From Planctomyces sp. (GTDB taxonomy: Bacteria; Planctomycetota; Planctomycetia; Planctomycetales; Planctomycetaceae): a stretch of DNA of 59,267 nt. A program made the position numbers and the translations under genes. The stretch is taken from NCBI GenBank assembly GCA_005798445.1, contig SYJG01000043.1, forward strand, positions 1 through 59,267, read 5' to 3'. Of this stretch, positions 7,360 through 24,140 are shown piece by piece (position 1 is the stretch's first letter; the number at the start of each line of letters is the position of its first letter). Below the pieces are notes generated by a model. The model made no database searches, was not told where the DNA came from, and was given only the letters and a program-made list of their open reading frames with translations.

Positions 7360-10300
7360 TTAGTTGTTGTCGGCGATGACGGCGGTGGCCACTCGCGCGG
7401 CAAGGTCGGCATTCAGGTTGTAGATGCGACTCGACGACAACGTCAGCACAACCGACTTGGGCACCGACGTCTTTTTGTCGTTGAGCGGCATCACGACAAC
7501 ATCCACGAACGACTGGCCTGCCTGAATCTTGACCGATGAGCCGGTCAAACGGACGCCGTTCACGAAAAACTGGTAGTTCGAGTTCAAGCTGGCAGTTCCA
7601 CTGCGATTGAAGTGGACCGTCAAGGAACTCTCCAGGCTTCCGGTTCGGCTGATTCGGAAAGTTGCCGTGTCCGTAAGGACTCCCGTGGTTGGTTCGACCG
7701 CCGAGTTGTCGAGCGCGGTGATCGAAACGATCGGCTCATTGTCCGCGAGGTTGATCGTCGCGGAGTTGTTGCCGGGAATCGGGTCCAGGAGATAATTCAC
7801 GGCCATTCCCAGTGCGAGCGAAATCGTCTCACTTAGTTCGGCAGTGGCGTCAGCCTTCGGGATCACCACGACGTCGAATGACGATTGCCCAGCGGGGATC
7901 ACGACCGTCCGACTCTTGAACATGTCTCCGTTCACGGTCAGCATGTAATCGCGGTTGATCGTCGCGGTGCCGGTTCGAGTGAGATTGACTGTCAGCGGTT
8001 CGGTTGTGGCTCCAGTTCGCGTGATGCGGAAGGTTCCCGTGTTCGCCGGTTGGCCGGACACAGTCTCCGAAGCCAAGTCATCGACGGGGGCAATGGAAAC
8101 GACGGCGGTGCCACCGATCATGGGATTGGAAATACCCAGGCCTCCGCTAACGGGAGGATCGAAGTTGCCGACCATCGGAACGGAGACGTTGCTCCCGAAC
8201 TGAGCGTAGAGATCGACTCCCAGCGGCTTCGGCGAGAACTGATGGTTCAGTGCCGCGGCGGTGCCGGGAACGGCAGCGGTCGCGATGGATTGGAAGATGA
8301 AGTACTCGGCGGTAGACGTGTTGGGGGCGGCTCCGTTGCGGTTCGGGACCATCAGGCCGATGTCCGTGATCCCGTCGAGATTGAAGTCGCCCGCGAACGG
8401 TCGTTCCAAGCGTCCGGGGAACAACAGCGTCTGAGACATCGGGACGTCGCGATTGCTGAAGTTGATCGTGTCGTCTGAATTGCCATCCAGCACTCCGGGG
8501 GTGCCGTCGGCTGCGGTGGTGAGATCGAAGTAGAACAAATCCAGTTGCGCGTTGTGGACGGCGAGATCGACGAGGCCGTCTCCATCGAAGTCTCCGGCGA
8601 TTGGCACGCCACGCATGTTGCCAAGAAACGTGCCGTCGCCGACGTCGATGTTGTTGTTGGCGTTCGTGTCGAGATACCACCTCTTGCCGTCGAACAGACC
8701 GATCTCGTCACCGACGTGAGCCGAATTGAAGTTGCCGGAAATTGGCGTGGCATTGATTTGCAGACCGCTGAGCACCGAGTAATCCGGGCGGCCGTCGTTG
8801 TTGAAGTCGAGCAACCAACGGTACTGACGATTCAGCAATCCGTAACCGCCGATGCGGTCGAAGCCGTCTTGTGTGACGGCGGCAGCCGGATTGAACTTAC
8901 CGGCGAAGTAGCGGTCGGTGTTGAGCCCAAACTCGAATGCGAGGTCGCGATTGACGAAGTCGGTGTTGGCCGGATCAAAGTGCATGTTGCCGTTGATATC
9001 GACGGTGATGCCTCCTTGACCGACGGCTCCGATTTCCGCACGGCTGTCGATGGTGAACCGGGCGACAAACTCTCCGCCGGGCACGTCGTCGCCGCTGGGG
9101 AAGTTCTGGTCATCCTGCGGTTCTTTCGCGTTCGATTCGCCGTCCAGTTTGTTGCCGGCGAGATCGAAGATCGAATCGTTGATCGTCAAAGTGAAACGGT
9201 CATCGGGCAGCGGACTGGAGAACGTCAGCTCGGCGGTCGCAAGCCCCGCTTCGCCATTCACAGCAGGTTCGAGGGTGATGGTCACGGACTCGATCGGAAT
9301 GACGCCGTTGGCATCACCTTTCAGAACGAAGTGCCCCGGTTCGGCGGCACCGGCACCGAGCGCTGTCAGCAGTGCCACATAGCCAGGGAATGCGGCCGTG
9401 CTGCGGTTGGGCAAGTCCTGGAATGTGATCGTCAAGCCGTCCGTGCGCGGAGTGGGACCGTCCACAGGCTTCGGATCAAACAGGTCGTAGTCCGACTCAC
9501 CGGTGATTTCGACGTCGAAGACTTGCGGGCCTTGCGTGTCGATGAAGGTATTCAACGTGATCGGAGTGCTGACATTACCGGCCAAGTCTTCAAACGTGGC
9601 CGAGATGACTCGCAGCCCGTCCTTCGTGAAGCCGGCCACCGCACTGTTCAAGTCCACGTTCGACGTGAGCGACCAGTGGCCGAGGTTCGGCGACAAGCCG
9701 AACTGGTTCGTGCTGTCGGTCGGCGACACGACGGTCTGTCCGATCTGCACCAGAGTGCTCGACGCATTCGTCGCGTACAGCCGCACGATCGAGTTCGCTT
9801 CCGCGTAGCCGGAGAACGTCGGCGTCGTGTCGTTCGTCATCTGGTCGGTGAATGTTGCGGGAAATCCGTGGACTCCCGAATCGCTGGTCGCATCGAGATC
9901 CAGATTCAAATGATTGACGGCGGTCTGAACAGTCGGCGGGTCGAGCGTATCGACGACAATCTCCAGCGATTGGCTGAACACCCCGAAGCCGCTTTGAGCC
10001 GGAGTGGCCGGGTCGATCATTTGGACCCGCGCCGTGAGGAAGTGACTGCCGTCGGTCAGCGCGGTTCCGAATGTGAAGCTGTAGACGCCAGGTTGTCCGC
10101 CAACCGCCTGAGCAAATCCGGCTGCAACAGGCGTGTGTTGGTTGTTTTCGTCGAAGATCGCGACTCGGAAACCGGCCGGCGTGCTGGCTGCGGTCGTCGC
10201 CGAGTTAAATACGATCGGGATGACCTGATCCGGCGGCGATCCGGGCGTGGCGTTGCCGGGCAAATCGTTGAGCAGCCCCGCATCGGACAAACGCAGGAAA

Positions 10301-17563: not shown

Positions 17564-17826
17564 GAGCAGTCGTTCGAGTCAGAGAATCTTTGGAAATCAA
17601 ACCAATTTCGGGCGGGAATTTAGGGGCTGAGTTAGACAAAATCCACGACCTGACAGATCTACGACAACAGCCACACGCTCGCATCCCAAGCCTTCTCCCT
17701 GTGGGAGAAGGTGGCCGAAGGCCGGATGAGGGTTTCGATCGCCAAAAGACGTCGTTCGTAAACCGGCTCCCGCACCCCAGCCCTCTCCCCACGGGAGAGG
17801 GAGCGAACCACGTTTCGAGTTCGCCG
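17564..17826. repeat. Intergenic hairpins upstream of the sigma factor gene
   Basis: Two short hairpins stand out. CCTTCTCCC/GGGAGAAGG is at 17691-17711 and CCCTCTCCC/GGGAGAGGG is at 17781-17801, each with a 3-nt loop. They are the two halves of a dispersed repeat that reads SPLPTGEG-like when translated. The frame is open upstream of the sigma gene, but these residues are repeat-derived and not taken as coding. Confidence 0.7.
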
Positions 17827-18399
17827 ATGCCCGATCACTCCGAATCGCTGGCGACGCAAGTTTCGCAGTTGTGCGTACAACTGGCCGAAGGGGATGTCGC
17901 CGCGCTCGGACAACTGTTCGACCTCACCGCCGCTCGGCTGGTGCGGTACGCCGAGGCAATCTCCGGCCGGCGCGAGGATGCCGAGGACGCTCTGCAAGCC
18001 GCCATGATCAAATTGGCTCAGCATCCCGAACGTCTTGCGCAGGCCGAGCTGCCCTGGACGTATTTCGTGAAGATGGTCCGCAACGAAACTTTGAAACTGG
18101 CCGAGTCGCGCCGCAGCCGCTCGCGCGTCGTCGAGCTTTTGCGAACGTGGATCTCGCGTCCGCGCTTCTGGTCTCTGCCCGATGATGACTGGCGCGAGCA
18201 AATCCAAACCGCCGTCAAACGATTGCCTCCCGAACAAGCCGAAGTCGTCGTCCTGAAAATCTGGGAGGAGTTGACCTTCGCCGAGATCGCCGACATCCTG
18301 GGCGAATCGCCGAACACGACTGCCAGCCGATATCGCTATGCCCTCGAAAAACTACAACGCACGTTGCAGCCGCTGGCCGAGGAGGTGCGAAATGGCTGA
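17827..18399 (+). CDS. ECF-type RNA polymerase sigma factor
   Basis: This is a 190-residue sigma-70-family factor of the extracytoplasmic-function class. The region-2 core is at about 35-100 (DLTAARLVRYAEAISGRREDAEDALQ, and AELPWTYFVKMVRNETLK). Region 4 is at about 135-180 (RLPPEQAEVVVLKIWEELTF, then AEIADILGESPNTTASRYRYAL as the promoter -35-binding helix-turn-helix). The start at 17827 excludes a repeat-derived N-terminal extension. Its last codons overlap the next gene by 8 bases, and the redox gene follows. It probably controls its own operon, with a redox or envelope signal being an inference. Confidence 0.9.
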   Translation: MPDHSESLATQVSQLCVQLAEGDVAALGQLFDLTAARLVRYAEAISGRREDAEDALQAAMIKLAQHPERLAQAELPWTYFVKMVRNETLKLAESRRSRSRVVELLRTWISRPRFWSLPDDDWREQIQTAVKRLPPEQAEVVVLKIWEELTFAEIADILGESPNTTASRYRYALEKLQRTLQPLAEEVRNG

Positions 18400-18985
18400 G
18401 TACTTGCCGCCTGTTGGAGTCCCGCCTTTAGGCGGCTCAACGGATGACCGCCTGAAGGCGGAACTCCAACACTTCGCTGACGAAACCGAACTGCTGCGCG
18501 GAGCGAACATGCTACCGACGTTGACGAGCCGCTTGCGTGAGCGCGTCTTGGACGCCGCGACCGCCGCTTATCGACAAGCTCGCCGCTGGGCCCAAGCTCG
18601 GCAAGCCGCATCGTTCCTGAGCGTCTGCCTGGTGGCGTCATTCGTACTCTCGCCGGTGGCAAACATTTCTTTGCCGAACTTCGCCGCATCGGTCGATCTC
18701 GCCTCACAAGAAATCTTTTCGTCCCCACAACAACCGAACTCCGCCTGGAACCTGCGTCACGACCGCGAATTCCTCGGCCTCCCCCAAGATCACGCTCCTC
18801 CAAAAATCAAAAATCAAAAATCAGAAATCAACAATCTCTTCGTCGCTCGTTCTGAATCATTACCTCCGCGCGACAAGCTGCTAACCGCACTGCACAGCAG
18901 CGACGGCTGGGCCACCGTCCAAGCCTTCCAAGCCGTCCGCTCCCGCAGCCAGTCCAAGCTGCAACGAGCCTTCGCAGCGAATTGA
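18392..18985 (+). CDS. Small membrane protein coupled to the ECF sigma factor
   Basis: This 197-residue protein has one likely transmembrane helix (about 73-92, SFLSVCLVASFVLSPVANI) between a short cytosolic part and an exported C-terminal part. Overlapping the sigma gene by 8 bases and preceded by GAGGAGG, it is translated with it. That position is usual for an anti-sigma factor or sensor, although no zinc-binding anti-sigma motif is visible. Two stretches look inserted. Residues about 8-26 are encoded by a palindrome (18414-18469), and a KIKNQKSEIN stretch is encoded by an AT-rich tandem repeat (18801-18833). Function unknown. Confidence 0.75.
   Translation: MAEYLPPVGVPPLGGSTDDRLKAELQHFADETELLRGANMLPTLTSRLRERVLDAATAAYRQARRWAQARQAASFLSVCLVASFVLSPVANISLPNFAASVDLASQEIFSSPQQPNSAWNLRHDREFLGLPQDHAPPKIKNQKSEINNLFVARSESLPPRDKLLTALHSSDGWATVQAFQAVRSRSQSKLQRAFAAN
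18414..18469. repeat. In-frame palindrome inside the sigma-linked gene
   Basis: 22-nt arms at 18414-18435 and 18448-18469 (TTGGAGTCCCGCCTTTAGGC and complement, two mismatches, 12-nt loop) lie entirely within the coding sequence. They translate to a PVGVPPLGG...RLKAELQ stretch. No stop or frameshift results. Confidence 0.85.
18801..18833. repeat. AT-rich tandem repeat (AAAAATC units) inside a coding gene
   Basis: Four to five CAAAAAT-type units stand out from the GC-rich surroundings and encode KIKNQKSEIN in frame. The same unit in the other orientation occurs inside rnr at 20421-20454. Confidence 0.85.
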
Positions 18986-19004
18986 GACCGGAAGGGAGCC
19001 GCCG

Positions 19005-19559
19005 ATGGCACCGCGCAAAACGACGTTGGCTCTCATCTTCGCCGCCGTGTGTGTTGCGGTCGCAGCAGCCCAAGAGCGCGAGGTTCGACGCAAGAACTTG
19101 ATCGGAAAAGCTCCGCGGGAACTGGTCGGCGAGAAGACCGATTGGCTCGGCAAATCGCCGCCACGGGTGCTGGCGGAGCTGAAGGGCCAAGTCCTCTGGT
19201 TGCAGTTCAATTTCTGAGAAAACTGCAACTCCTTCCGCCCCCACCTGGTCAGATGGGAACAAGAGTTCGCGGAAAAAGGATTGGTCATCGTAGAAATCTC
19301 CGGCGGCGAATTCGCCACCCGCGACGAATCGCAGGCACGCGTGGACGCCCAAGACATTCGGCACTCTGTGATGTGGGATGAAGAGAACCGGAACCACAAG
19401 AATTACGGAATTACGAGCTGGCCCGCCGCCTGTCTGATCGGTGCCGATCGCAAAGTCTTCTGGCAAGGCAACCCAGCCCGCATGCAGGCCCGCCCATCAG
19501 AGGCCGAAGAATTCAGGAGACTCCTGGAAAGCCATTTGCAAGCGGCGAAGAAGAAATAG
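19005..19559 (+). CDS. Thioredoxin-like selenoprotein (in-frame UGA read as selenocysteine)
   Basis: Read through the TGA at 19215-19217, this is one 184-residue protein. It begins with a signal peptide (TTLALIFAAVCVAVAAA, cleavage near residue 22). A thioredoxin-type strand follows (GQVLWLQFNF, 61-70), then Sec71 in a U-E-N-C motif exactly where thioredoxins have CxxC. Next come a helix and strand (GLVIVEISGG), and a TSWPAACLIG segment (about 141-150) matching the cis-Pro strand of TlpA-like proteins. Downstream of the UGA the same frame stays open for 113 sense codons and is clearly coding. A hairpin begins nine bases after the UGA, and selB is 2.6 kb away. It probably acts as an exported disulfide or peroxide reductase, which is inferred. 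AAGGGAG precedes the start, and it lies 19 bases after the sigma-linked gene, so it is the third gene of that operon. The alternative is a nonsense-mutated pseudogene. Confidence 0.85.
19215..19217 (+). other. Recoded UGA (selenocysteine codon)
   Basis: The in-frame TGA falls at codon 71 of the thioredoxin-like gene. It is flanked by FNF and ENC, so decoding as Sec gives the redox motif UxxC. UGA serves as a normal stop in many neighbouring genes (for example rnpA and the sigma factor), so this is local recoding and not a genetic-code change. Confidence 0.85.
19227..19267 (+). promoter_or_regulatory. Candidate bacterial SECIS element
   Basis: A stem-loop starts nine bases after the UGA. The outer stem pairs AACTC (19227-19231) with GAGTT (19263-19267). 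An inner stem pairs CCCA (19240-19243) with TGGG (19254-19257). The top pairs CT (19245-19246) with AG (19251-19252) around a GGTC loop at 19247-19250. A loop with leading G residues about 30 bases from the UGA matches the known geometry of bacterial SECIS hairpins that SelB recognises. The pairing was worked out by eye, and no folding energy was computed. Confidence 0.7.
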
Positions 19560-22196: not shown

Positions 22197-24140
22197 TCAT
22201 GTCCAAGATTGACTCAACTTCGATCCGGGAATGCGCAGATCCCCGTTGCGGACGGTTAGGCCGTTCGCGTCGAAGAACTCGCACAGCGGAACGGAGAACT
22301 TACGGCTGACGTTCCAGGCATCGCGAAGCTGAGCCATCGACGCCGGGCCGTTCTTGTCGAGGAATTCGGCGCAGAGTCCTCGTGCGCGTTCGATCGCTTC
22401 GGGAGCAAAGTACAAGTCCTCGGCGACCTTCACGAGCAGGCCGTCTTCGCAACTGACGTGCAGCAGCGGCTCGATTTGATCGAGCTTCTGGCCGACGGTG
22501 GTGGCGAGCTCTTTCATCGTCGGCGGAGTCAGTCCGGCGGCCGTGATTTCTTCGAGCAGCTTCGCTCGCGCGGCTTGCTGATTCTTCGTGAGCTTCACTT
22601 GCGCGTCAGCCGGGCCGATGTGCGGGCCGACTTTGACCAGTTCGCCTTTGACCAACAGATGGTTGAAGACGGCGTCGAGCAGCGCGGCGTGAGTGATCTC
22701 GCGACAGCCCGACAGGAACAGCTCTCGCGGCAATGCTCGTCGCGGCTGCTGCTTGGCGAGCACCTCGCGAATCGTCTTCATCACCGACGCCGACAGCGCG
22801 ATGAGTCGATCTTTGTGGACGAGCAGTCCACGCTCGGCGCTGCCCAGCCGAATCAATTGGCCGGACGTTCGCAGCTCGTCGAGCAGTTGCCGATAGCGTG
22901 GCGGAGCGATGCCGGCTCGGCGAGCGGCTTCGAGCGGCGAGTCGTCGATGCTGTCCTTCTGTGCGATCAACGCCGACAGCCGCGCGACGTCGCTGGACGA
23001 TGACCACTTCGTGCCGAGCGACACAAGATCCTTGATTCGCTTGCCAACGGGCAAGTAGGGATCGAGCACTCGGCCGCCGGCGATCGTGACGCTGGGCGAA
23101 ATGCGACGCAGGATGAATCGCTGGCCGTGCACAGCGACGATCGGCTCCTTCGTGCGGAGTTCGGCGAAGCCCCGTTCTCCCGGCGGAAGCGGCGTCCCTT
23201 TGAGATTGATTCGCGCGAGCACCTCGCGTGTGCCGAGATGCAGGTTGAAAACTTGCCGATCCTTCAGCAACAAGGGCGACGACGAGAGATGTTTCAGTTC
23301 GACGAGGATTCGCCGAGTTGGCAGCAGATATCCGGGTGAGGCGAGTTCCATGCCGCGCTCGACTTCGTCCGTCTTCACACCGGCGAGGTTGATCGCCGTC
23401 CTCTGCCGAGCACTCGCGTCGTCCGCCTGTGAGCCGTGATGCTGCACGCCGCGAACTCGCACCTCGCGCTGCTCAGGCATCATTTCCAGCGTCTCGCCGG
23501 CGCGAGCCGAACCGCTCGCTACCGAACCGGTGACGACCGTACCATGCCCCGCAACGCTGAAGACGCGGTCGATCGGCATTCGGAACAGCGGCAACGCTTC
23601 GGGGATGACGACTTCGTTGGCCAGCTTCGCCAGCGCCACTCGCAATTCGTCGAGTCCCTCGCCCGTCTGCGACGAGACTGGCACGATCGGACAGCCTTCG
23701 AGAAACGTCCCGCGAGTCAGGTCGGCAATGTCCGCCGCGACCAGTTCGACGAAGTCTCGCTCGACGAGATCAATCTTCGTCAACGCCACCAAGCCAGCCG
23801 GGATGCCGAGCAACTCCATGATTTCCAGATGCTCACGCGTCTGCGGCATGACGCTGTCATCCGCCGCGATGACCAGCATCGCGAGATTCACGCCAGTCGC
23901 TCCCGCAACCATGTTCTTCACGAAACGCTCATGCCCCGGCACATCAACGACACCAAACTGAATGCCATCCTGCTCAAAGTGCGCGAAGCCGAGCTCAATC
24001 GAAATCCCGCGAGCCTGTTCCTCTGGCAGCCGATCGGTGTTGATTCCGGTCAACTTGCCGACGAGCCGCGTCTTGCCGTGGTCAATATGCCCGGCCGTGC
24101 CAATGAGAATGTGTCGCGCAACGGAGGGTTCAACGGACAT
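22197..24140 (-). CDS. selB: Selenocysteine-specific translation elongation factor SelB
   Basis: This 647-residue GTPase delivers selenocysteinyl-tRNA to UGA codons. The G1 motif [11 protein letters not shown] (14-24), the SelB-typical [19 protein letters not shown] (35-53), DVPGH (66-70) and TKID (121-124) are all present. EF-Tu would have a quite different G1 and switch region. Domains II and III reach about residue 350. The rest is four winged-helix domains that bind the SECIS hairpin ([41 protein letters not shown] and others). It is probably co-transcribed with rnr, downstream. selA, selD and the Sec tRNA are not in the window. Its presence supports Sec decoding at 19215. Confidence 0.95.

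Follow-up and report, generated by a model that had tools for sequence, protein, structure and literature searches.

A probable U-x-x-C selenoprotein of the ResA/TlpA type in Planctomycetota and the conserved SECIS hairpin behind its UGA codon

Described thioredoxin-fold oxidoreductases and the window protein

Thiol-disulfide oxidoreductases of the ResA/TlpA/DsbE type (PF13905, PF00578, NF002854) have a thioredoxin fold, a signal-like N-terminus and a CxxC active site. The fold, the N-terminus and the position of the active site are shared by the protein described here, which is encoded on a Planctomyces sp. contig of 59,267 nt (SYJG01000043.1; the whole stretch is called the window hereafter). 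The conserved Pro before the last strands of these proteins is also present in the window protein, whereas the first Cys is replaced by a predicted selenocysteine (Sec) and the active site is followed by PHLVRW. Selenoproteins with a UxxC thioredoxin fold have been listed before, in the tables of PMC1088965 (Sargasso Sea), PMC9312934 and PMC13188914, and going by these table entries the thiol-disulfide isomerase-like and Prx-like UxxC selenoproteins have the same PF13905 and PF00578 domains and the same motif as ours. The score of the window protein against the NCBIfam ResA model (NF002854) is 35.6 bits, far below the curated cut-off of 170. A second model, NF041054 (WAxxUGC_long), is by its name a ResA-like family with an active-site Sec, but its motif differs from that of the window protein, which scores 15.3 bits (cut-off 300); in a scan of ten members the model gave weak matches to three (best E 0.0013). 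No NCBIfam model reached its cut-off for the window protein, and our literature search returned no title or abstract start describing its subfamily. One Planctomycetota study with a selenoprotein section did turn up (PMC4807772), and its supplementary selenoprotein table might hold a member. Because UxxC selenoproteins are already listed and no NCBIfam model matches at its cut-off, the window protein is of a known general kind, in a subfamily that is unnamed in the models searched. The original prediction had called it undescribed, which can hold for the subfamily but not for UxxC thioredoxin-fold selenoproteins as a kind, given the tables cited above. Going by its sequence and that of its relatives, the locus very probably encodes a ResA/TlpA-like oxidoreductase, likely to be exported, in which UGA is read as Sec within U-x-x-C. 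Under the standard bacterial table 11 the same gene is split in two and appears to be broken by a stop codon.

Table 1. Features of the candidate selenoprotein locus and of selB in the window
Feature	Coordinates	Strand	Basis
Predicted selenoprotein gene, 184 residues, Sec at position 71, stop TAG	19005..19559	+	Frame, PF13905 and PF00578 above cut-off, homologues
Shine-Dalgarno-like GGAAGGGAG 5' of the ATG	18990..18998	+	By eye
Probable signal peptide, residues 1-23	19005..19073	+	By eye; helix 12-24 in the structure model at low pLDDT
In-frame TGA, codon 71; predicted Sec71, first residue of U-E-N-C	19215..19217	+	Same-column TGA in relatives
Bacterial SECIS hairpin, stem 19240-19246 / 19251-19257, loop GGUC 19247-19250	19240..19257	+	Conserved sequence in Sec-type relatives, phylum scan
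selB, selenocysteine-specific elongation factor	22197..24140	-	TIGR00475, 341 bits (cut-off 242); SelB winged-helix and beta-barrel domains

Reading frame, fold and the UGA column in relatives

Counted from the ATG, 70 codons precede the in-frame TGA, after which 113 sense codons run without any other stop, as had been predicted, to the TAG at 19557-19559. Read with table 11, the frame leaves two fragments only, 19005-19217 (70 aa) and 19281-19559 (92 aa), and these are the two short ORFs that automatic annotation had been expected to report. The chance of 113 open codons at this base composition is about 0.03, and taken alone the length of the open frame is weak evidence. Before and after the TGA alike, codon usage in this frame fits that of the genes in the window, with log-likelihoods per codon of 0.256 and 0.173; the values are negative for the other two forward frames and 0.084 and 0.139 for the best reverse frame. 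The joined product also scores narrowly above the Pfam cut-offs for Thioredoxin_8 (PF13905, 29 bits against 27) and AhpC-TSA (PF00578, 26.7 against 26). This confirms a single coding frame interrupted by one TGA, and we regard the frame as settled because homologues in distant genomes have TGA in the same column.

A structure model was built from eight alignment rows and has a mean pLDDT of 80.1 and a pTM of 0.75; of the five models, two are near 80 and three at 55, 47 and 41. The top Foldseek chains for the model are DipZ, ResA and DsbE (E 7e-10 to 4e-9), which agrees with the thioredoxin fold claimed for the joined halves. Among the solved ResA, DipZ and thioredoxin chains listed, the residue that the family profile sets against the Sec column is the first Cys of CxxC, and codon 71 therefore stands at the first redox Cys position, where the original prediction had placed it. 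The window protein thus has a ResA/TlpA-like thioredoxin fold with the Sec codon at the active-site position.

The read-through protein was searched against 392 genomes of the phylum Planctomycetota at E 1e-8, which gave matches in 98 genomes, many of them long open frames without TGA that look like ordinary CxxC proteins. Among the best 10 matches besides the window protein, 8 have exactly one TGA, placed in the column of U71; in the remaining two this column holds Cys in L005 and Ser in L011. Hence homologues of this subfamily carry UGA or Cys (one Ser) at codon 71 and not random residues, the latter having been named as an outcome that would speak against a selenoprotein. When genome contigs were scanned with the part of the protein after Sec, nine loci were obtained, all from Planctomycetota; four belong to genomes already in the 392-genome set, and each of the other five has UGA in the U71 column, two of them (L051 and L052) in the form U-x-x-U. 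Judged by this kinship, the window is itself planctomycete. Of the 17 columns that are invariant across the other nine alignment rows, the window protein keeps 16, and the two residues just before Sec that are present in all nine of these rows are absent from it. Relatives were also found in 51 plasmid records, all below 60% identity and none covering 80% of the query.

The two fragments of the table 11 reading would also be explained by a true stop, with either two separate short genes or a pseudogene that arose from a mutated Cys or Trp codon, but homologues in distant genomes with TGA in the same column and a conserved hairpin after it contradict this, and we consider it highly improbable; the plain pseudogene was rejected on these grounds. 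A sequencing error as the source of the TGA is likewise very unlikely because other genomes carry the same TGA followed by the same hairpin. The selenoprotein interpretation given in the original prediction, of one gene split by an in-frame TGA, is supported by the codon usage on both sides and by the TGA of the relatives.

The U-x-x-U loci deserve separate mention. In L051 (4001-4294) and L052 (4001-4249) two in-frame TGA codons stand three apart (U-D-T-U) with the same hairpin, and these are likely double-Sec active sites. TGA also occupies the first redox position of other thioredoxin-like frames (L019, L020, L026, L058, L070, L083, L092 and others), which have UGPC and UINC motifs and in which a different sequence stands where the window-type hairpin would be. 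Planctomycetota thus seem to be rich in thioredoxin-like selenoproteins.

The SECIS hairpin

Conservation of the hairpin was counted over 13 rows scoring at least 130 bits (window included), of which 10 are Sec-type and 3 have Cys or Ser. The 13-nt sequence CCTGGTCAGRTGG, which forms the GGUC-loop hairpin, lies 26 nt after the TGA in 9 of the 10 Sec-type rows, the tenth (L012) having GGAC in the loop, and it is found in none of the 3 Cys/Ser rows. In L011, the Ser form, the HLVRW peptide is the same but is written with other codons (CATCTCGTGCGATGG), and in one genome (G188) a Cys form that lacks the hairpin (L005) occurs beside a Sec form that has it (L069). On adding by hand five lower-scoring Sec rows, which were partly chosen for their LVRW context, CCTGGTCAGRTGG is present in 14 of 15. 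The Arg codon of LVRW is AGR in 14 of these 15 rows, whereas elsewhere in these stretches AGR makes up 8 of 107 Arg codons; the small binomial value for this excess is not a true probability, because the sequences are related. As a test independent of protein similarity, the 392 genomes were scanned for TGA-N26-CCTGGTCAGRTGG with the reversed pattern as control. The pattern matched 21 times in 20 genomes, and when all 21 frames were read, 19 looked thioredoxin-like with U-x-x-C or U-x-x-U; the frames of the other 2 (L127 and L138) are short, and these matches probably arose by chance. For the reversed pattern there was no match among the matches listed in the same scan. With this yield, the exact pattern is usable for finding further members.

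The published bSECIS model calls for a 3-9 nt loop that has G in its first two positions and lies 16-37 nt after the UGA, an upper stem of 4-16 bp and a minimum free energy of -7.5 kcal/mol or lower (as given in PMC13188914). With GGUC as its loop and 29 nt between UGA and loop, the window hairpin agrees with this model in loop and spacing. It has one C.A mismatch within its core (19244 against 19253), and the 24-nt hairpin reaches -5.8 kcal/mol, short of the limit of -7.5, whereas the other 14 hairpins range from -7.2 to -15.6. Taken over the 57 nt that follow the UGA, the fold reaches -13.6 kcal/mol and still contains the hairpin. Shuffled sequences fold just as stably (z 0.02 for 60 nt and +1.45 for 51 nt), and since folding energy gives no signal, the case for the hairpin rests on its conservation. 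Many bacterial SECIS elements are unlike each other according to the same source (PMC13188914), with which a SECIS fixed in both sequence and spacing across diverged proteins stands in contrast, and we regard this near-invariance as the most notable part of the finding. One explanation, which we put forward tentatively and would rate somewhat below an even chance, is that CCTGGTCAGRTGG at one fixed distance from Sec is a sequence-fixed SECIS module, common to far-diverged thioredoxin-fold subfamilies of Planctomycetota (UxxC and UxxU). If so, Leu-Val-Arg-Trp would be kept mainly for the RNA and SelB and not for the enzyme, and the C.A pair in the window copy would mark the extent to which such a module can drift.

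Sec machinery, proposed mechanism and history of the gene

The selB gene of the window lies 2.6 kb from the selenoprotein gene; selA and selD are elsewhere in the same genome, and SelA, SelB and SelD all score over their curated cut-offs. The genome is a 553-contig draft (90% complete), in which tRNA-Sec (selC) was not found with the Rfam model, with two patterns or with a model built on 8 tRNA-Sec sequences from planctomycetes. In each of the two model-based searches 150 candidates were scored, out of 1481 and 950. Ten Rfam candidates and two from the planctomycete model were discarded because ARAGORN calls a tRNA for Ser, Leu, Cys or Phe at the same place, and the 36 matches of one pattern (13 in its control) were read by eye with none judged to be tRNA-Sec. 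An Rfam search of 11 genomes (that of the window and 10 with relatives) gave 8 matches over the cut-off, which ARAGORN also calls tRNA-SeC; the three genomes without a match are that of the window and two that are 77% and 80% complete. We tentatively take selC to be missing from the draft assembly rather than from the organism. The expectation that the genome would hold the Sec genes was thus borne out for selA and selD, with selB in addition, but not for selC in this draft.

The frame would also stay open if a changed code or readthrough placed one of the ordinary amino acids, Trp or Cys, at the UGA. This reading is, however, at odds with the TGA that ends 5 of the 12 window ORFs taken as genes, with the Cys or Ser (and not Trp) at this codon in relatives without UGA, and with the presence of the Sec machinery, so that we see almost no likelihood in it. 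The genes ended by TGA include selB and an RNase R-like gene. TGA is not generally reassigned, and a changed code was rejected.

On the selenoprotein reading, the protein would be a ResA/TlpA-like thiol-disulfide oxidoreductase with Sec at the attacking position of U-x-x-C. The GGUC-loop hairpin would recruit SelB bound to GTP and Sec-tRNA-Sec, and the ribosome would insert Sec at the UGA in place of termination. The signal-like N-terminus seen by eye suggests that the protein is probably exported and works outside the cytoplasmic membrane, where the selenolate of Sec71 may attack the disulfide (or sulfenic acid) of a target and Cys74 may resolve the Sec71-target intermediate, after which a membrane thiol reductase would recharge the protein. 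A reducing role is inferred from the analogy with ResA, and the target and the recharging reductase are putative partners.

In a 28-row tree the window protein groups with L129 and with L005, a Cys form (support 86/94, below the star of the tool), and its branch is long (1.23). Throughout this tree Sec forms are intermixed with Cys/Ser forms, which fits a repeated exchange of Sec against Cys/Ser. Among the 27 further sampled genomes from the window's family, the exact pattern was not found in any thioredoxin frame, and the single exact-pattern match in this family (G227) has a stop directly after it. The window gene has either come in from outside or disappeared from related genomes. A different history would be that of a former selenoprotein gene decaying in this lineage, whose hairpin is weak, which has lost two residues and whose UGA now acts mostly as a stop. 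The C.A mismatch in the core of the weak hairpin, the gap before Sec, the long branch and the tRNA-Sec not found in the draft would all be expected from such decay, while the in-frame codon signal on both sides of the TGA, the lack of a further stop in the frame, the 16 of 17 invariant columns kept, the presence of selA, selB and selD and the exact GGUC loop and spacing argue against it. We therefore consider decay improbable, and early decay retains its small share because of the two missing residues and the branch length.

No conserved gene neighbourhood was apparent by eye among 12 loci. In the window, the selenoprotein gene is the last of three consecutive genes on one strand (17674-19559), after that of an ECF sigma factor (17674-18399) and an ORF at 18338-18985, and the three are possibly one operon. 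The ORF is without a Pfam match, has one hydrophobic stretch and ends 19 nt before the selenoprotein gene. In G203 a frame resembling an ECF sigma factor by eye (L116, about 8300-9530) is divergent from the gene of the relative; the window gene likewise has an ECF sigma factor upstream.
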